A DNA stretch of 64,000 bases from Saccharopolyspora sp. NFXS83. GTDB lineage: Bacteria > Actinomycetota > Actinomycetes > Mycobacteriales > Pseudonocardiaceae. Where the stretch lies: positions 1 through 64,000 of the forward strand of contig NZ_JAPFGB010000007.1 of NCBI RefSeq assembly GCF_026241095.1, in the 5' to 3' direction. The notes under the pieces are model-generated. The model saw only the letters and a list, made by a program, of their open reading frames with translations. It had not been told where the DNA came from and did not search any database. Of this stretch, positions 55,196 through 64,000 are shown one piece after another (the first letter of the stretch is position 1; each line of letters opens with the position of its first letter). The position numbers were made by a program, and so were the translations under genes.

Positions 55196-55411
55196 TCCGG
55201 TCCGCTCCCCCGATCGCGCTTCGCGGTCGCGCGTGCGCGCGTCGTCATCCCCCGCGACGTGGTGGCGATCGGGCGGCGTGAGGCTCGTTCTCGTTGGCGG
55301 ACCTGGACGTTCGCCCCGAACGGCGGCTCCGCCGCGGCGGGCGGGGCTGAGCCCCCGGCTTCCGCGATGGGACGATCTCAGCGGTACCGGACCGTTCGGA
55401 GGGGAGCCGTC

Positions 55412-57694
55412 ATGGCGACAACGCCGGAGACCGCAGCGGACGGGGCCTGGGACGTTCCCGCGCTGCTGCGCTCGTTGACGATCGAGCAGAAGGTGGCGCT
55501 GCTCGACGGCGCGGACTTCTGGACGACCGAACCGCTGCGCGAGCACGACGTCCCGTCGATCATGCTCACCGACGGTCCGCACGGCCTGCGCAAGCAGCGC
55601 GCCGGTGGTGATCACCTGGGTCTCGCCGACAGCGTGCCCGCCACCTGCTTCCCCACCGCCTCGGGCCTGGCGAGCTCGTGGAACGTGGACCTGCTCGACG
55701 AGATCGGCCGCGCGCTCGGCGCCGAGTGCCGGGCCGAGGACGTCGCGGTGCTGCTGGGGCCGGGCGTGAACATGAAGCGGACCCCGCTGTGCGGGCGGAA
55801 CTTCGAGTACTTCGCGGAGGATCCGCTGCTGGCCGGGCACCTGGCGGCGGCGCTGGTGCGGGGCGTGCAGGCCCAGGGCGTGGGCACCTCGGTCAAGCAC
55901 TTCGCGGTGAACAACCAGGAGACCGAGCGGCTCACGATCTCCGCGGAGGTCGACGAGCGGACGCTGCGGGAGATCTACCTGCCCGCGTTCGAGCACGTCG
56001 TCCGCGAAGCCCGGCCGTGGACGGTGATGTGCTCCTACAACCGGATCAACGGGGTGTACGCCTCGGAGGACCGCTGGCTGCTCACCGAGCTGCTGCGCGA
56101 GGAGTGGGGGTTCGACGGGCTGGTCGTGTCCGACTGGGGCGCGGTCAACGCCCGCGACGAGAGCCTCGCGGCCGGGCTGGACCTGGAGATGCCCTCCTCG
56201 GGTGGCGCGGGAGCCGAGGTGATCTTGGAGGCCTGCCGGGCGGGAACGCTGCGCGAGCAGGACGTCGACGTCGCCGCCGGGCGGGTGCTGCGCCTGGTCG
56301 AGCGCGCCGCTTCGGCGCCGGCCGCGCCCGGTTTCGACCCGGAACACCACCACGCGCTCGCCAAGCGGGCCGCGATCGAGAGCGCGGTGCTGCTCAAGAA
56401 CGACTCCGGCGTCCTCCCGCTGCGGCCGGAGTCGACGAAGGTCGCCGTGCTCGGCGAACTCGCCCGCACGCCGCGCTACCAGGGCGCGGGCAGTTCCCAA
56501 GTGCGCCCGACGCGGCTGGACGACGCGCTGAGCGCGCTGAACGCCGCCGGGTTCGCCGAACTGCGCTTCGCCCCCGGTTACGAGGTGGAGGCCGGCGCTC
56601 CCGATCCGGACCTGGCCGCCGAAGCGGTGCGCCGGGCCGCCGACGCCGACGTCGCGGTGCTGTTCCTGGGCCTGCCCCCGTCCGCGGAATCCGAAGGCTA
56701 CGACCGGGATCACCTGTCGCTGCCCGCGAACCAGCTCCGGCTGCTGCGGGAGGTGGCGGCCGTCAACGAACACGTCGTCGTGGTGCTCGCGGGCGGTTCG
56801 GTGGTCACCGTCGACGAGTGGCAGCACCACGCCACGGCGATCCTGCAGGGCTGGCTGCCCGGCCAAGCGGGCGGCGGCGCGCTCACCGACCTGCTCACCG
56901 GCGCCGCGAACCCGTCCGGACGGCTCGCCGAGACGATCCCGGTGCGCGGCGCGCACGCCCCGGCCGTCGGCCGGTTCGCCGGGGAGCACGGGGCGGTCCG
57001 CTACGGCGAGGGCCTGCTCATCGGCTACCGCTGGTACGACGCGCACGAGCTGCCCGTGAGCCACGCGTTCGGGGAAGGCCTGTCCTACACGACGTTCGAC
57101 TACACCGAACTGGACGTGTCGGTGCTGGAGGACGGGCCGCGGCCGAGGGTCAGCGTCTCGCTCACCGTCACCAACACCGGTTCCCGCGCGGGCCAGGAGG
57201 TCGTGCAGCTCTACGTCGCCGATCCGGAGTGCTCCGTGTCCCGGCCGGAGCAGGAGCTCAAGGCGTTCGCGAAGGTCGCGCTGGAGCCCGGCGACAGCAC
57301 CCGCGTGGCGCTGGAGCTCGATCAGCGCGCGTTCGCCTACTGGCACCGGCCGCTCGGCCGCTGGGTCGTGGAGGGCGGCGAGTTCGAGCTGCGGGCCGCG
57401 TCGTCGTCCCGTTCCGTGCGGCTGTCGGCCGTGGTGGAGCTAGCGGGTGAGCGGATCCTCAGCCCGCTCGCGCCGGAATCCGAGCTGGGCGCCTGGCTGG
57501 ATCACCCGGTGGCGAGCCGCCTGCTGGGCGAGGCTCTCGCGGCGAGCCCGATGAGCGAGATGGCCGCCGATCCGCAGCACGTGCGGATGATGCGGTCGTT
57601 CCCCGCCGCGCGGCTGGCCAGGTTCCCCGGCGTGCCCATCACCCACGAGCAGTTGCGGGAGTGGGCGGAGCAGGCGAACAGCGCGCAGCGGTGA
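55412..57694 (+). CDS. GH3-family beta-glycosidase
   Basis: This 760-aa intracellular-type beta-glucosidase has no signal peptide. The GH3 N-terminal barrel runs from PALLRSLTIEQKVALLDGADFW to the nucleophile D241 in LVVSDWGAVNARDES, and includes KHFAVNNQETER. A GH3 C-terminal alpha/beta sandwich follows (LLKNDSGVLPLRPE, FLGLPPSAESEGYDRDHLSLP, GWLPGQAGGGALTDLLTG), then a fibronectin-III-like domain (VTNTGSRAGQEVVQLYVADPE, GEFELRAASSS). ATG 55412 follows GGAGGGGAGCC. The long GH3-C and FnIII layout matches bacterial enzymes for gluco- or xylo-oligosaccharides. It probably handles sugars brought in after extracellular hydrolysis. Confidence 0.93.
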   Translation: MATTPETAADGAWDVPALLRSLTIEQKVALLDGADFWTTEPLREHDVPSIMLTDGPHGLRKQRAGGDHLGLADSVPATCFPTASGLASSWNVDLLDEIGRALGAECRAEDVAVLLGPGVNMKRTPLCGRNFEYFAEDPLLAGHLAAALVRGVQAQGVGTSVKHFAVNNQETERLTISAEVDERTLREIYLPAFEHVVREARPWTVMCSYNRINGVYASEDRWLLTELLREEWGFDGLVVSDWGAVNARDESLAAGLDLEMPSSGGAGAEVILEACRAGTLREQDVDVAAGRVLRLVERAASAPAAPGFDPEHHHALAKRAAIESAVLLKNDSGVLPLRPESTKVAVLGELARTPRYQGAGSSQVRPTRLDDALSALNAAGFAELRFAPGYEVEAGAPDPDLAAEAVRRAADADVAVLFLGLPPSAESEGYDRDHLSLPANQLRLLREVAAVNEHVVVVLAGGSVVTVDEWQHHATAILQGWLPGQAGGGALTDLLTGAANPSGRLAETIPVRGAHAPAVGRFAGEHGAVRYGEGLLIGYRWYDAHELPVSHAFGEGLSYTTFDYTELDVSVLEDGPRPRVSVSLTVTNTGSRAGQEVVQLYVADPECSVSRPEQELKAFAKVALEPGDSTRVALELDQRAFAYWHRPLGRWVVEGGEFELRAASSSRSVRLSAVVELAGERILSPLAPESELGAWLDHPVASRLLGEALAASPMSEMAADPQHVRMMRSFPAARLARFPGVPITHEQLREWAEQANSAQR

Positions 57695-58000: not shown

Positions 58001-61000
58001 TCATCTTCGGATCCGCCGCCTCCTCCGACGGCGGGGTGCCCGGCGGCCCTCGACGATCGCGGCGGCGGGCAGCACCGCCGGATGCACCGGTTCCGGTGCG
58101 GCGTGCCCCGGTTCCCCGTTCAGCGGCAGCAATCCTGGCCGGTGGTGCGGTTCCACCCGCAGCAGCCCCCACAACCCGGCGTTGACCTGGTTGATGGTCA
58201 AACCGTCCCGGATGAGGAAGTCACCGGTCCGGCCCCTGGGGCCACCGGCACCACCGATGAGCTCGATGGTCGCCTCGGTCTCCGGCAGCATTCCGCCGAC
58301 GGCGGAGCGGATCGCGGCGTTCGCGTCGCCGCGCTGGTAACGCCACATGTGCCCCGCCACCAGCATCGTGTGCACCCGCCCCCGATCGGCGCCGTGCACG
58401 AACCGCACGGTCACCGGATCACCTCGGTGAGCGCGGAACACCGGCGTCGCCGGGTCGCCGTGCACCCGCGAGCTGAACACGTGCGCCTGTTCCGGATCGT
58501 CGCGCAGCCGCGGGGCGAAGCGTTCGTTGCGGTAGTTGATGCCGCGGTTGCCCCGCTCGTAGGGATCCAGGTCGACGTCCTCGCCCGACACGGCCTCCGG
58601 GATCGGTTCGCCGTCGCGGTCGAACAACCGCACGCCGTCCTGCCAGATCGCCACGAACTCGCGGGTGGCCCGCGCGGCGCCCTCCTCGACCCAGCGGACG
58701 TCGGCAACCGCGCCGGTGGCCGGTCCGCCGGTCACCGGATCCGTCCAGCTCGCCCCCGGTGGTTCGATGATCAGCGTTCCGAACAGGCCGTGGTGCGCGT
58801 TGCCGCGGCGGTCCCCGAAGTCGGACAGCGCGATCGTCGAACCCGCGATCTCGGGTGCGGCGAACCAGTAGGTCGTGATCGACTCGCCGGGCCGCACCGT
58901 CTGGTCCGCGTTGAACCCGACGGTCGACCCGTCGGAGGTCCGCACGTCGTAGTCGACCATCCCGCCGTGCAACGACACCCGGTCACCGCGCGGGAACGGA
59001 GCGTCCGCGGGCAGCGGCACGTGGTCGCCGTGCGGTGGCTGGCCGCCGGGGCGCAGCCCGTTGGTCAGCGTGATCTCGATGCACTCACCGGCGCTCGCCC
59101 GCAGGACCAGCGGTGCCGGTTGCCGGAGCCCCGCGCGCACCGCCGCCGCGTCCTGCGACCTGACGTAGGCCAGCCCGAACGGATCGTGGTCCCGGTCCTC
59201 GGGGTTGAACCTGAGCGGATGCTCGACCGCGTCGACGTCGAACGAGCGCACCGGTGCCGTGCGCGGGCAGGTGTTCACCGGTTCCGCGCGCGGTGGCGCG
59301 TGCCCTGGAGGCCGAGGCCGGTCGACGACCGGCCTCGGCTCGGGCGCCTGCCCCGGGAGGCCGTGATCGGGCAGCGGAGCCAGGTCCCGCTGCGGCCGGT
59401 CGGTGGTGCGGAAGATCCCCCACAGCCCCAGCCACTGGTCGTCGAGCGCGGTCGATCCGTACATGAAGTCGCCCGGACCACCGGCACCTCTGTTCACGAT
59501 CGCCGGGCCGCCGTTGCCCGGTGTCACTTCGGCTTCGTCCTTGAGCTCCTCGCCCTCCATGCCCCGGTGGACGATGGTCGACCCGACGATCTCGTAGTTG
59601 AAGTACTCGGCGAGCCCGAGGGCCTGCTGGTCGGTGAGATCGCTGTTCGGGTTGTCGGGCTCGTTGAGCCATTTGTGCCCGTGCAAGGTGAAGTCGTGCA
59701 TCTCCTCGTGCGCCGCGGCGATGTTGCGGATCAGCACGGGTTCACCGGTGTAGGCGCGCAGCACCGGAGTGGCCGGGTCGCCGTGCACCGTCGAGGAGTA
59801 CGCGTAGGCCGGGTCACCGCGAGGCCCCGGCACACCTGGCCGGGTGCGGATCTGGAACGGCTCGTTGCGGTAGTTCACCGCGTACCCGCCCTGGTCTTCA
59901 CCGAAATCACCGGGAACGCCGGGCGGCTGGACCGGCGGCCCCGCGCCGAAGTTCCGCCACAGCGGGACGCGGTCGGCGTAGTAGAGGGTGAATTCGCGGA
60001 AGTCCATGCCCAGGTCGGACTCGATGATCGCCACGGTGCCGACGCCGTCGGTGGGCTCGCCGGTCCGGGTGTCGCGCCAGATCGCGTCCGGCGGTTCGAC
60101 GTTCATCGACGCGTACAGCCCCTTCTGCTGGTGCAGGCTGGGGTACTGGTGGTCGTGGAAGAACACCGATCTCAGCGGTTCGTCCACGTACCACCGGAAC
60201 GCGGCCGTCTGCCCGAGCATCGCGGTCTGCGCGTAGTTGAACCCGACGGACGTGCCGTCCGAAGCGAGCTCGTCGAACCGGACCAGGTGCACGTGGGCGG
60301 AGACCTCCGAGGTCTCCTCCGGCAGCATGTAGTCGCCGTCGAGGCGGTTGACGTGGTCGATCGGCTCGTCGGGATCCTCGTCCAGGTGCAGGTCGTTGGT
60401 GAGCAGGATCCGCATGCAGTCGCCCTGGCGCGCTCGGATCGTGTACGGCTCGGGTCTCTCCCGCCCGGAGGTGACCGCGTCGAGGTGGCTCTCCTCGACG
60501 TACAGCCGGCCCTGGCGGTCCTTCCACCCCGCTTCGTTGTAGAGCAGCGGCATGTCGACGGCGTGCGGCCGGTAGGTGCGTTCCGGGCGCTCCGGCGGGC
60601 ACGGGTCGACGAACCCGGCGCCGGGCTTGTCCGGGTCCAGCGCCGGCATGTTCGCCGCCTCCATCGGCGTAGGCCCGCGGACCGTGTCGCCGGGGCGCCG
60701 AAGCTCCGCGAAGTCGTCCTCGATGACGGTGTGCGGCGGTTTGTACGCGCGCTGGCCGAATTCTCCTTTGACGAACAGCGGAAAACCGGGATGCCGGGCG
60801 TCCGGCGCGGGTGTCGCACCGGCCCGGTCCGGCAGCTCCTGCAGCGCTTGCAGCGGCGTGCCGTCCGGGTTGGACGCGGTGCCGTCGCGCAGCCGGTCGA
60901 AGATCCGCAGGTGACCCCAGAAGCCCTGCGCGAAGTGCGGGTAGAAGTGGCAGTGGAAGACCGAATCGCCGATGGTGCCCTGCACTCCGCCCGCACCGCC

Positions 61001-62791
61001 TTCCAGGCGCAGCTCGAACGCCTCACCCGGCCCGATCGCCTGGACGTCCTTGCGCGGTGACGCCGGGTTGTTCGGGTCGGCGAACCAGCGTTGGGTGTGC
61101 TGGTGCCAGGGGTGGGTCTCGCGGACGCCGGGGTGGATGAGCGCGAACCGGACCGGGTCGCCCAGGTACGCCTTGGAGATCATCGCGTCGGTGTCCACCA
61201 CCGGCGGTCCGCCGGGTTCGCCCGGTCGCGTCAGCTTGCCCTCGTCGCCGAAGACCCACGACTGCAGGTGCGATTCCTCGCTCTGGCACTTCGCGCCGGG
61301 ATCTTCGACGACCCGCCCGAGGTCCGCCACGAAACCGTCGCAGAAGTGATCTTCCGTGGTGAAGGTGCGCCCGTTGGGCAAGGTGATGGTCTTCGCCACG
61401 CCCGACGGGTTCTCCGGGGTGGGCGTCCCCCGATGTTCCAAGATCGCCCGCAACCGGTTCCGCAGCGGCTCGCTGCGGTAGTTGATCCCGAACGTGGAGT
61501 CCGGCAGGCCCGTGGTGGGGAAGGTGGGTTGCTCGCCGTCGCGGTCCCGGACCCCTTCGACCTCGTCCATGATCATGATGGCGAGGGAGCGGTGGTCCTC
61601 GCCGTCCGGAACCCGGACGTCGGCGAACAGCTCGGACTGCACCGCCCGGCCGGTCCCGCGGTCGAGCAGGTCCGCGCCGGTGATCGGGTCGTGCCAGGTC
61701 GAACCCCGCGGGTGCACGATCACGCCGCCGAACAAGCCGCGCTGGGTGCTCGTGGAGCCTTCGGCCGCGCTGTCGAGGTTCGCGATGTCCACGACCGGCG
61801 CCTGCCCCTCGTGGTCGGCGTACCAGGTGAACGTGCCCTGCTCGCGGTGGCCGAGCGAGGTGTCCGGGTTCCCGCCGACCATCGCCCCGTCGGAGTCCCG
61901 CGGGTCGAACTGCACCAGGCCGTCGGGATGGATGCCCACCCGGCGGTCTCGGATGTCGTTGCGCAGCTCGATCCGCACGCAGTCCCCGACGTTCGCCCGG
62001 ATCGTCAACGGCTGGGACAGCTGCGGATTCCGCTGCAGGTCCCGCTTGCCGACGCGGGCGTCGTCGTTCTTCAGCGCGTAGACCAACCCGTCCGGCAGGT
62101 GGTCTCCCCAGCCGTTGAGCGGGATGTCCAGCTGGAACGCGGACAGGTCGTAGGTGATCTGCCGAGCTCCGGCCGGGCACACCCCCGACGGCGGCGGCGC
62201 GGCGGGAGCAGGCGACGTCCGGCCGGGATCACCTGTCGCCGGTAGCGCGCAGAGCGGCACCACCACGAGCACCGACAGCACCCCTGCCACCGAAGCCCGC
62301 CGCCACGACCGCTCGCGCCACCACCGGCCGACCGCCACGATCGCCGCCGTCGGCAGGCAGACCACGGCCGCCGACGCCAGCATCACCGGCGCCGCCACCG
62401 CCGCCTGGTGCACGACCCCACCCGCATCAGGCAGCGACTGCGCCCTGCCGAGGAGCAGCCCGGACAGCGCCGTCCTGGCCGGGAGCACGACCGACAGCGC
62501 CGCGCACATCGCGAGCGCGGTGGCGCACGACCGCTGCACCCACCGGGTCGCCGGCGCGGCGGCGCCCACCGCGACGTCGGCACCCGCCAGTGCCAAGACC
62601 ACGGCCGCCATGGCGAACGCGAACGCGAACAGCCCGAATCCCACCGCTTGCACCGGCGCGGGAAATCCGCCGACGCCGATCCACCCGACGCCGCGCGGAT
62701 CGGCCAGCGCGACGCCCGCGGTGATCACCGCAGACACGGCGCTCCGGGCCAGCACCGACGACCGGTACCGGCGCTGCATCGTCGTCCGCAC
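58001..62791 (-). CDS. Giant membrane-anchored multicopper oxidase with six or more cupredoxin domains
   Basis: This 1,596-aa protein starts at GTG 62791 behind GGAGGAGG. The first about 190 residues form a membrane domain of about five helices (VLARSAVSAVITAGVAL, AVGFGLFAFAFAMAAVVLAL, AVVCLPTAAIVAVG, VAGVLSVLVVVPLCAL). A very long extracytoplasmic region of repeated cupredoxin-like units follows. Copper motifs are HPWHQHTQRW near residue 560 and VFHCHFYPHFAQGF near 612 (HxxHxH and HCHxxxH, with Phe in the axial slot). A second set has SAHVHLV, VFFHDHQ and DFTLHGHKW. The third region (SLHGGMVDYD) looks partly degraded in ligands. The size and the FHCHFYPHFAQG block recall MnxG-type Mn(II) oxidases. 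The substrate is unproven. Confidence 0.85.
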   Translation of the reverse strand: MRTTMQRRYRSSVLARSAVSAVITAGVALADPRGVGWIGVGGFPAPVQAVGFGLFAFAFAMAAVVLALAGADVAVGAAAPATRWVQRSCATALAMCAALSVVLPARTALSGLLLGRAQSLPDAGGVVHQAAVAAPVMLASAAVVCLPTAAIVAVGRWWRERSWRRASVAGVLSVLVVVPLCALPATGDPGRTSPAPAAPPPSGVCPAGARQITYDLSAFQLDIPLNGWGDHLPDGLVYALKNDDARVGKRDLQRNPQLSQPLTIRANVGDCVRIELRNDIRDRRVGIHPDGLVQFDPRDSDGAMVGGNPDTSLGHREQGTFTWYADHEGQAPVVDIANLDSAAEGSTSTQRGLFGGVIVHPRGSTWHDPITGADLLDRGTGRAVQSELFADVRVPDGEDHRSLAIMIMDEVEGVRDRDGEQPTFPTTGLPDSTFGINYRSEPLRNRLRAILEHRGTPTPENPSGVAKTITLPNGRTFTTEDHFCDGFVADLGRVVEDPGAKCQSEESHLQSWVFGDEGKLTRPGEPGGPPVVDTDAMISKAYLGDPVRFALIHPGVRETHPWHQHTQRWFADPNNPASPRKDVQAIGPGEAFELRLEGGAGGVQGTIGDSVFHCHFYPHFAQGFWGHLRIFDRLRDGTASNPDGTPLQALQELPDRAGATPAPDARHPGFPLFVKGEFGQRAYKPPHTVIEDDFAELRRPGDTVRGPTPMEAANMPALDPDKPGAGFVDPCPPERPERTYRPHAVDMPLLYNEAGWKDRQGRLYVEESHLDAVTSGRERPEPYTIRARQGDCMRILLTNDLHLDEDPDEPIDHVNRLDGDYMLPEETSEVSAHVHLVRFDELASDGTSVGFNYAQTAMLGQTAAFRWYVDEPLRSVFFHDHQYPSLHQQKGLYASMNVEPPDAIWRDTRTGEPTDGVGTVAIIESDLGMDFREFTLYYADRVPLWRNFGAGPPVQPPGVPGDFGEDQGGYAVNYRNEPFQIRTRPGVPGPRGDPAYAYSSTVHGDPATPVLRAYTGEPVLIRNIAAAHEEMHDFTLHGHKWLNEPDNPNSDLTDQQALGLAEYFNYEIVGSTIVHRGMEGEELKDEAEVTPGNGGPAIVNRGAGGPGDFMYGSTALDDQWLGLWGIFRTTDRPQRDLAPLPDHGLPGQAPEPRPVVDRPRPPGHAPPRAEPVNTCPRTAPVRSFDVDAVEHPLRFNPEDRDHDPFGLAYVRSQDAAAVRAGLRQPAPLVLRASAGECIEITLTNGLRPGGQPPHGDHVPLPADAPFPRGDRVSLHGGMVDYDVRTSDGSTVGFNADQTVRPGESITTYWFAAPEIAGSTIALSDFGDRRGNAHHGLFGTLIIEPPGASWTDPVTGGPATGAVADVRWVEEGAARATREFVAIWQDGVRLFDRDGEPIPEAVSGEDVDLDPYERGNRGINYRNERFAPRLRDDPEQAHVFSSRVHGDPATPVFRAHRGDPVTVRFVHGADRGRVHTMLVAGHMWRYQRGDANAAIRSAVGGMLPETEATIELIGGAGGPRGRTGDFLIRDGLTINQVNAGLWGLLRVEPHHRPGLLPLNGEPGHAAPEPVHPAVLPAAAIVEGRRAPRRRRRRRIRR

Positions 62792-62878: not shown

Positions 62879-63424
62879 CTAATGACCGCCGTGACCGCGC
62901 CCCAACGGCTCGGGTTCTCGCGGCGGGACCGGCTCCTGCTCCATCGGCCGAACCGGCAGGCCGACGGTGATGTCGTCGTCGCCGTCCGGAACGGTCAGCC
63001 GGACGTGCTCGGCGCCGTCCGGGGCGCGGAACCGCAGCCGTTCCTCGACGGTGCCGCCCGGCCGGATCCGCCGCGGCCCGCCGACTCCCGCGACCGCCTC
63101 GGCCGGTCCGACCGCATCGTCGATCCGCAGCTCTACGTCCTCAAAGGACAGTCGCACGGGTGCGCCGGTCGTGTTGCGCAGTTGCAGCACGATCTGAACT
63201 TCGGGGCCGTGTTCCATCGGCATCGGCGCGATCATCTGATCCATCGGCGGTGACGGGATCAACGTGGCCGTGGCGTCCAGCCAACCGGAACCCCACCGCG
63301 CCGGGACGCCGACCGCGGGTTCCGGTGCCGCGACGCCGAATCCCACCGCGCAGGCGGCGAGCAACGGCAACGGCAGCAGGCCGAGCGTCCGCCACCTGCG
63401 ACGGGACCGAGCGGGGAACCGCAT
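62879..63424 (-). CDS. Methionine/histidine-rich lipoprotein upstream of the multicopper oxidase
   Basis: This 181-aa predicted lipoprotein has a basic start (RFPARSRRRWR), a hydrophobic core and the lipobox LAAC with C25. A Met-rich metal-binding-like stretch (PPMDQMIAPMPMEHG) precedes an Ig-like or cupredoxin-like domain (VQIVLQLRNTTGAPVRLSFEDVEL, RIRPGGTVEERLRF, VRLTVPDG). The C-terminus is GRGHGGH, a potential copper site. ATG 63424 follows GAGG at six bases. The multicopper oxidase gene starts 88 bp downstream, so the two probably form one unit in which this protein would deliver or buffer copper outside the membrane. Confidence 0.78.
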   Translation of the reverse strand: MRFPARSRRRWRTLGLLPLPLLAACAVGFGVAAPEPAVGVPARWGSGWLDATATLIPSPPMDQMIAPMPMEHGPEVQIVLQLRNTTGAPVRLSFEDVELRIDDAVGPAEAVAGVGGPRRIRPGGTVEERLRFRAPDGAEHVRLTVPDGDDDITVGLPVRPMEQEPVPPREPEPLGRGHGGH

Positions 63425-63569
63425 GTGCACCTCGCATGCGCGGCCGAGCGTGCACCGCATCCAGACGGACCTTCACCAAGGGGAGCACGACGAGATGTAC
63501 CGCTCCGCCCACTGCTGCGCCAACAAGCGCAACCAAGAAGAACCCGAAGGGATCAGTGTTGTCCGGCAT
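63425..63569 (-). CDS. Possible start of a small membrane protein overlapping the lipoprotein gene
   Basis: An open frame from ATG 63569 encodes a hydrophobic segment (FGFFLVALVGAAVGGAVHLV, then VLPLVKV) preceded by PDNTDP. It would overlap the lipoprotein gene in another frame and run to 63141, but only its first about 45 codons look gene-like. Codon use is less GC-rich than nearby. It may be a small membrane partner, or the first part of a frame-damaged gene. It is kept only as a weak candidate. Confidence 0.25.
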
Positions 63570-63715: not shown

Positions 63716-64000
63716 TCAGTCGAGCACCATCAGCCATCCGGCCAGCGCGAGCAACGTGACCAGCAGCACCGGCACGGTGAGCACGATCCCGGTGCGGAAG
63801 TAGCGCCCCCACCCGACGTGCAAGCCCTTGCGGTCGAGCACGTGCAGCCACAGCAAGGTGGCCAGGCTGCCGATCGGCGTGATCTTCGGCCCCAGGTCGG
63901 ACCCGATGACGTTCGCGTACACCATCGCCTCGTGCGCGAGCCCGGTCGCGCCCGCGCCCGCGATGGCCAGCGCGGCGATCAGCACCGTCGGCAGGTTGTT
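63716..64000 (-). CDS. ArsB-type anion permease, C-terminal part (runs off the window)
   Basis: This is the C-terminal end of a 10-12 helix ArsB/NhaD-type carrier. Its last four segments are visible, with the typical [32 protein letters not shown] block and [15 protein letters not shown] near the end. The frame is open to the window end (NNLPTVLIA continues upstream), so the N-terminus lies outside. The motif [18 protein letters not shown] is shared by arsenite efflux permeases. With the copper-type genes next to it, it hints at a metal or metalloid resistance cluster. Confidence 0.85.

Follow-up and report, generated by a model that had tools for sequence, protein, structure and literature searches.

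A plan of six cupredoxin domains is shared by ceruloplasmin and coagulation factors V and VIII, and in ceruloplasmin the trinuclear copper site lies between domains 1 and 6. Other multicopper oxidases are smaller: CueO is of the three-domain type, and the two-domain small laccases of Streptomyces form trimers of three copper-bearing protomers. The closest described relatives of the protein reported here are the MnxG proteins. MnxG of Bacillus sp. PL-12 (PDB 9bxa) belongs to the Mnx complex (MnxE3F3G), which has three kinds of subunit; according to one report, activity depends on joint expression of mnxEFG, and both MnxE and MnxF are copper-binding (PMC5622069). A similar mnx operon is carried on a Priestia megaterium plasmid (CP109763.1), with MnxE and MnxF genes upstream of the MnxG gene, and the identities of these two subunits were confirmed against chains B and E of 9bxa. 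Predictions of transmembrane helices exist for manganese-oxidase homologues of Pseudomonas, the passages on them naming no multi-helix domain (PMC8218464), so membrane association of MnxG-like proteins is not new as such. No description of an MnxG that carries a fused multi-helix membrane domain was recognised in the literature searched, which took in few subscription papers, and the group described below is small and apparently unstudied. A membrane-fused relative with another partner would offer a further system in which to learn how much of MnxG is enough for Mn(II) oxidation and how copper reaches the site, and would broaden the search for actinobacterial metal oxidisers.

The window, a stretch of 64,000 nucleotides from Saccharopolyspora sp. 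NFXS83, encodes such a protein:

58001..62791, minus strand: giant multicopper oxidase gene, GTG start, 1,596 residues (open frame, homologue, PDB match)
62177..62791, minus strand: N-terminal membrane module, residues 1-205, about five helices (hydropathy, low-confidence model, loop charges)
60752..62176, minus strand: unit 1, cupredoxin domains 1 and 2, residues 206-680 (unit profile alignment, Pfam)
59372..60589, minus strand: unit 2, cupredoxin domains 3 and 4, residues 735-1140 (unit alignment, AlphaFold model)
58112..59254, minus strand: unit 3, cupredoxin domains 5 and 6, residues 1180-1560, no complete copper site

The frame translates into 1,596 residues with zero internal stops, the length given in a preliminary description of this DNA, and a Shine-Dalgarno-like GGAGGAGG lies immediately 5' of the GTG at 62791. 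A scan for promoters and terminators returned no promoter-like site, and its sole terminator-like site is on the plus strand within the oxidase gene. A long frame arising by chance or as an artefact of GC-rich DNA was rejected, because a genome of the same genus encodes a homologue with 93% identity across residues 1-1595 and ten named relatives exist.

The only strong sequence match in the PDB is 9bxa chain A, MnxG (E = 8e-228), which covers query residues 222-450, 501-1067 and 1106-1554; the next match, ascorbate oxidase, has an E-value of 0.03. The same entry is the best fold match (Foldseek TM 0.79; VIA Z 32.7 over 939 residues at 2.5 A) of an AlphaFold model of residues 480-1596 built with 20 aligned sequences (pTM 0.81, mean pLDDT 75), followed at Z 21-23 by factor V, two-domain laccases and ceruloplasmin. 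The core resembles PL-12 MnxG in its six domains, their order, the places of the copper motifs and an alignment from end to end; it differs in that the match begins after the membrane module and identity is 32-38%. Likewise, Priestia MnxG has an MnxG-type core with 36-38% identity and all 11 copper ligands described below, but no membrane segments precede it in either of the two loci, whereas the query has five. Ceruloplasmin and factors V and VIII, the next Foldseek matches, show 10-13% identity. The NCBIfam equivalog model for MnxG (NF041487) matches in nine stretches (E = 1.6e-79) at 267.4 bits, far below its cut-off of 3,100, so annotation by this model alone would miss the MnxG name.

The preliminary description was right about what the gene encodes and half right about what it means. 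The likeness to MnxG and the lack of a comparable membrane domain in MnxG, both of which it had proposed, are borne out by these comparisons, the latter for Priestia MnxG. Its suggestion of a new type of metal oxidase was too strong for a core that aligns end to end with MnxG, and the fusion is found in a small actinomycete clade and in a Rubrobacteraceae clade. A membrane-anchored variant of MnxG would be the better-fitting description.

Within the core (residues 206-1560), three tandem two-domain laccase-like units align with one another in profile comparisons at 30-32% identity (E = 2e-66 to 5e-87), which makes six cupredoxin domains where six or more had been counted at first reading, and two Pfam families, Cu-oxidase_3 (PF07732) and Cu-oxidase_2 (PF07731), score above cut-off. 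The copper motifs are concentrated in domains 2 and 3:

61082..61120, minus strand: domain 2 motif ETHPWHQHTQRWF, with H560 (type 1) and H563 and H565 (trinuclear)
60914..60970, minus strand: domain 2 motif GDSVFHCHFYPHFAQGFWG, with H613 and H615 (trinuclear), C614 and H619 (type 1) and F624 (axial)
60266..60307, minus strand: domain 3 motif EVSAHVHLVRFDEL, with H833 and H835 (trinuclear), kept in 27 of 27 rows
60113..60169, minus strand: domain 3 motif SVFFHDHQYPSLHQQKGLY, with H879 and H881 (trinuclear), kept in 27 and 26 of 27 rows

These roles follow the standard motif order of multicopper oxidases, which assigns H560, C614 and H619 to the type 1 site and the remaining eight histidines to the trinuclear site. 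All 11 ligands (H560, H563, H565, H613, C614, H615, H619, H833, H835, H879 and H881) are invariant in 25 of 25 sequences, the query included, in an alignment of residues 1-905 that lacks loci L036 and L042 of the later 27-row set. In that later set H560, H563, H565 and H619 are kept in all 27 rows, and H613, C614 and H615 in 26 each. At the corresponding type 1 histidine of the query and the 26 other rows, 9bxa has alanine because the entry is, by its title, the H340A variant. The motif HCHFYPHFAQG singled out at first reading corresponds to residues 613-623.

The motifs therefore give one type 1 site, in domain 2, and one trinuclear site, between domains 2 and 3, as befits a member of the multicopper oxidase superfamily. 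Domains 1, 4, 5 and 6 have no complete ligand set in the motif tables, a result supported for domains 4 and 5 by the columns of the 27-row alignment, whereas for domains 1 and 6 the loss is read from the motif tables; a protein with more than one complete copper site was ruled out by the motif tables and the unit alignment. The mixture of complete and lost motifs noted in the preliminary description thus comes down to a single set, and the complete trinuclear site on which it had made its reading depend is present. By position, domain 2 thus takes the role that falls to the final domain in an ordinary laccase, and domain 3 that of the first, and the arrangement differs from that of ceruloplasmin, with its site between domains 1 and 6. 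It differs also from the two-domain small laccases of Streptomyces, which resemble one unit (Z about 22): here three units are fused and one site is complete.

Such likenesses bring up a broad-range, laccase-like phenol oxidase, an improbable reading in our view, in which the axial phenylalanine at the type 1 site would give a high potential. Residue 624 is indeed Phe, and high-potential laccases have Phe or Leu at this position; unit 3, moreover, aligns with two-domain laccases at Z 22. However, unit 3 has no copper site, and of the 27 rows 15 have Phe as the axial residue, 11 have Met and one has Ala, so that Phe is not a conserved trait.

One incomplete site in the core deserves separate mention:

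59438..59698, minus strand: former type 1 site of domain 4, with H1032 and D1118 kept and the Cys lost (unit alignment; putative role)

In the unit alignment, H1032 and D1118 align with the type 1 ligands H560 and H619. Of the 27 rows, only L035, on a long branch, departs from either residue, and domain 5 has conserved positions as well (D1324 in 24, D1327 in 23 and H1333 in 24 of the 27 rows). By the repeat plan, the domain 4/5 interface would be the pseudo-equivalent of the active domain 2/3 interface, and the H1032/D1118 region is a candidate Mn site. Since many other acidic residues are also conserved (in 21 rows, leaving aside fragments, L035, L036 and L042), this site is a lead rather than a result.

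The membrane module, N-terminal to the core, contains five hydrophobic 19-residue segments by hydropathy, in agreement with the roughly five helices first described. The AlphaFold model of residues 1-905 (mean pLDDT 68.5) places helices at 12-30, 45-74, 80-113, 123-159 and 165-180, all with low confidence; the module is mostly below pLDDT 60, so the helix count rests mainly on hydropathy. Positive charge is highest in residues 1-11 (four Lys/Arg) and in the loop 155-167 before the last hydrophobic segment (five), a distribution that suggests an N-in, C-out topology. With this orientation, the protein is most likely an outward-facing, membrane-tethered metal oxidase. Pfam found no family above cut-off in the 10 modules compared: eight had no match, and the other two one sub-threshold match each. 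Heme or metal binding by the query module was considered in view of the histidines that some relatives have in and around these helices, and rejected, as the query module contains one histidine.

The group is rare in the genomes sampled. Searches that counted the query's own genome found the protein in 2 of 6 genomes of the genus, in 5 of 80 of the family (a 161-residue piece at E = 1e-15) and in 7 of 346 of the phylum (E = 1e-30, up to 10 candidates scored per genome); the four other family matches are distant relatives with 44-50% identity in the 161-residue piece. Scanning genome contigs brought the named loci to 10, and the viral collection contained no relative. Hydropathy was then surveyed in stop-to-stop frames at 28 loci. 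The ten named loci, G003 and L035 have two to five hydrophobic segments ahead of the core, the metagenome-assembled genome (MAG) of Frankiaceae having only two; Rubrobacteraceae frames with an intact start have seven or eight. Besides the Priestia loci, none was found in three Pseudonocardiaceae frames (1,233-1,268 residues), a Pseudonocardia plasmid and Halalkalicoccus; Nonomuraea, with two segments, and G411, with one, were labelled as having no module. Four of the six Rubrobacteraceae loci (L036-L041) are larger forms, with frames of 1,921-2,104 residues stop to stop and seven to eight segments, and L036 and L041 are in broken frames.

On a 27-row tree, built by a quick method with several open forks and three long branches and leaving out two broken L041 frames from the G319 chromosome (also left out of the 27-row counts), the query falls in a clade of 13 rows (SH-aLRT 100), 12 of which have the module. 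The members with the fusion are actinomycetes, among them Cellulomonas, Cryobacterium, Jidongwangia and Amorphoplanes. G411, also a member of this clade, has a frame that leaves its contig at the C-terminal end, and its columns for domains 5 and 6 look out of frame. Five Rubrobacteraceae rows form a separate clade (SH-aLRT 100), all with the module. The fusion is accordingly not unique to this protein. The modules may or may not share one origin: the module label requires three changes on the tree, and the alignment between modules of the actinomycetes and those of Rubrobacteraceae is weak (hhalign E = 3e-5, probability 72%, 70 columns).

Ligand loss does occur in the family. In the distant Pseudonocardia plasmid relative (L042 6010-9780), H613 and C614 are gone, H615 is replaced by Arg and H881 by Gly, so that it probably lacks working type 1 and trinuclear sites; it still has the His/Asp pair of domain 4. 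A structural or non-catalytic protein that merely keeps the motifs might be imagined from this case, a reading we consider highly improbable for the query, as neither it nor any of the remaining 12 rows of its clade has lost a ligand.

How would copper reach the site of a membrane-anchored MnxG? The gene upstream on the same strand, 87 bases from its stop codon to the oxidase start, offers a candidate:

62879..63460, minus strand: companion gene, likely start 63424; Ig-like product, rich in Met and His, bearing a LAAC lipobox-like sequence

The companion combines this lipobox-like sequence with a Met/His-rich stretch, PPMDQMIAPMPMEHG, and a His-rich tail, and a single copy was found in the query genome (150 of 195 first-look candidates scored). 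By tblastn, relatives adjoin the oxidase in G003 and in a Dactylosporangium MAG; the lipobox is present in the query and G003 proteins and absent from the Dactylosporangium copy. A profile of these three rows matches a frame upstream of the oxidase in the Frankiaceae MAG (E = 9e-4), and with that row added it matches two more frames, one immediately upstream of the oxidase in G061 (E = 2e-5) and the other a short way downstream in Rubrobacter G319 (E = 4e-4), E-values that hold for the chosen set of loci only. The companion adjoins the oxidase in five loci (G000, G003, L009, L008 and L035) and lies just downstream in Rubrobacter L036. With six rows, the profile detects members in 11 of the 16 genomes chosen for this search; those 16 include G000, G003, G061 and G319, from which profile rows had been taken. 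The companion was not found in G042, G070, G428, G430 and G432 (150 of 273-299 candidates scored in G070, G428 and G432), and matches in G075, G429 and G431 are weak or distant. In five Rubrobacteraceae genomes it lies about 0.3, 3.0, 5.8, 5.9, 6.4 and 18 kb from six oxidase loci. G277 and G319 have further copies or weaker matches elsewhere (three and four matches in all), so nearness to the oxidase is less telling there. Membership of the Ig-like extracellular families DUF4352 and DUF4232 is tentative: the query member scores below cut-off against DUF4232 (E = 0.07, 13.7 of 27 bits) and reaches E = 0.008 against PDB YcdA, and DUF4352 is matched by three of six relatives (best E = 6e-6), the query's own member not among them. 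The Met-rich, Ig-like lipoprotein gene next to the oxidase, and the presence of its relatives beside or near several other membrane-fused members, are new here.

This gene occupies the place that MnxE and MnxF genes hold in the Priestia operon. Unlike the PL-12 complex, which contains MnxE and MnxF, the query-type oxidases come from genomes in which neither was detected: when 12 actinobacterial genomes were searched with single Priestia sequences, which diverged MnxE and MnxF could escape, no match reached E = 0.01, the Priestia control was found, and a weak MnxF match in G430 (E = 0.06) was the only other one. By analogy, a companion of another fold that handles copper would be the functional counterpart of MnxE/MnxF.

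The remaining neighbours are as follows:

63718-64000, minus strand: ArsB-like arsenite efflux transporter, C-terminal part, upstream of the companion gene
55259-57694, plus strand: glycoside hydrolase family 3 (GH3) enzyme, convergent with the oxidase gene

The order is GH3, oxidase, companion and arsB-like gene in G000, and oxidase, companion and arsB-like gene in G003, where the choice of another open reading frame over the stretch in which GH3 would lie limits the order shown to these three genes. A 464-residue ArsB-like frame occupies the corresponding place in G003. No Mn-handling gene was recognised among the oxidase neighbours examined, the arsB-like and GH3 genes.

Taken together, we regard it as moderately probable that the protein is a membrane-tethered oxidase of MnxG type with Mn(II) as its most likely substrate and a companion that probably supplies copper. 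Homology makes Mn(II) the leading substrate, with Cu(I) as the main rival. The five-helix module would anchor the protein, placing the C-terminal catalytic part outside the cytoplasmic membrane. A substrate, most likely Mn(II) by comparison with Bacillus Mnx, would donate electrons singly to the domain 2 type 1 copper (H560, C614, H619, with Phe axial); the His-Cys-His motif would relay them to the trinuclear site, which lies between domains 2 and 3 and would be the place of O2 reduction to water. The remaining cupredoxin domains may serve as a scaffold and may also bind metal at their surface, with the type 1 remnant in domain 4 as the candidate place for Mn, and the adjacent Met/His-rich Ig-like lipoprotein would probably deliver copper. 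Of this picture, the architecture, the homology, the conservation of the ligands and the adjacency of the genes are shown directly, and the topology, the copper loading, the path of the electrons, the part played by the companion and the substrate are inferred. The reading is favoured by the end-to-end homology to MnxG, the invariance of the 11 ligands, the single site, the recurrence of the module in the clade, the distribution of positive charge in the module and the adjacency or nearness of the companion. Against it stand the undetected MnxE and MnxF, the low NF041487 score, the lack of a recognised Mn-handling neighbour, the ligand loss in L042, the several clade members with no adjoining companion and the low-confidence model of the module.

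Some of the same evidence could be read as copper tolerance: a membrane-tethered cuprous (or ferrous) oxidase would convert Cu(I) to Cu(II) outside the membrane, with the Met-rich companion as Cu(I) carrier. We hold this to be possible, if on the unlikely side. The companion is rich in Met and His, and several relatives have His-rich stretches in their membrane modules. A CopC/CopD gene is annotated near the Priestia mnx operon, and among the frames listed, inspection by eye picked out frames resembling CopC and CopD close to two Rubrobacteraceae genes (L038 and L039), while L037 and L039 each have another multicopper-oxidase-like frame nearby; these neighbours keep copper oxidation as a rival function. 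However, the core is of MnxG type from end to end, unlike the three-domain CueO, and no copper gene was recognised among the neighbours of the query gene examined. Beyond the Mn(II) oxidase favoured above, one may speculate on a second, membrane-anchored class of MnxG in actinobacteria, which would do without MnxE and MnxF, receive copper from the lipoprotein, use H1032/D1118 as its Mn site and confine Mn oxidation to the cell surface; that all these parts hold together seems to us rather doubtful.

The histidine content of the membrane modules varies among relatives. In the Rubrobacteraceae and Frankiaceae MAG modules, histidines lie in and beside the helices. Modules beside an adjoining companion have 1, 1, 3, 9 and 2 histidines, and the eight for which no adjoining companion was found (one of them, L005, on a short contig) have 9-19. 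However, L008, which has an adjoining companion, ties with L011 at 9, four Rubrobacteraceae modules have 5-11 despite a companion nearby, and the Cellulomonas genome and one Cryobacterium genome contain companion-like matches at a distance. That His-rich loops replace the companion is, on these counts, a weak lead. Membrane-module loops are also His-rich in the Cryobacterium homologues, and the homologue of Cellulomonas aerilata (L004 5017-6060) carries a tandem HDHADPAAAAAP-like repeat in such a loop.
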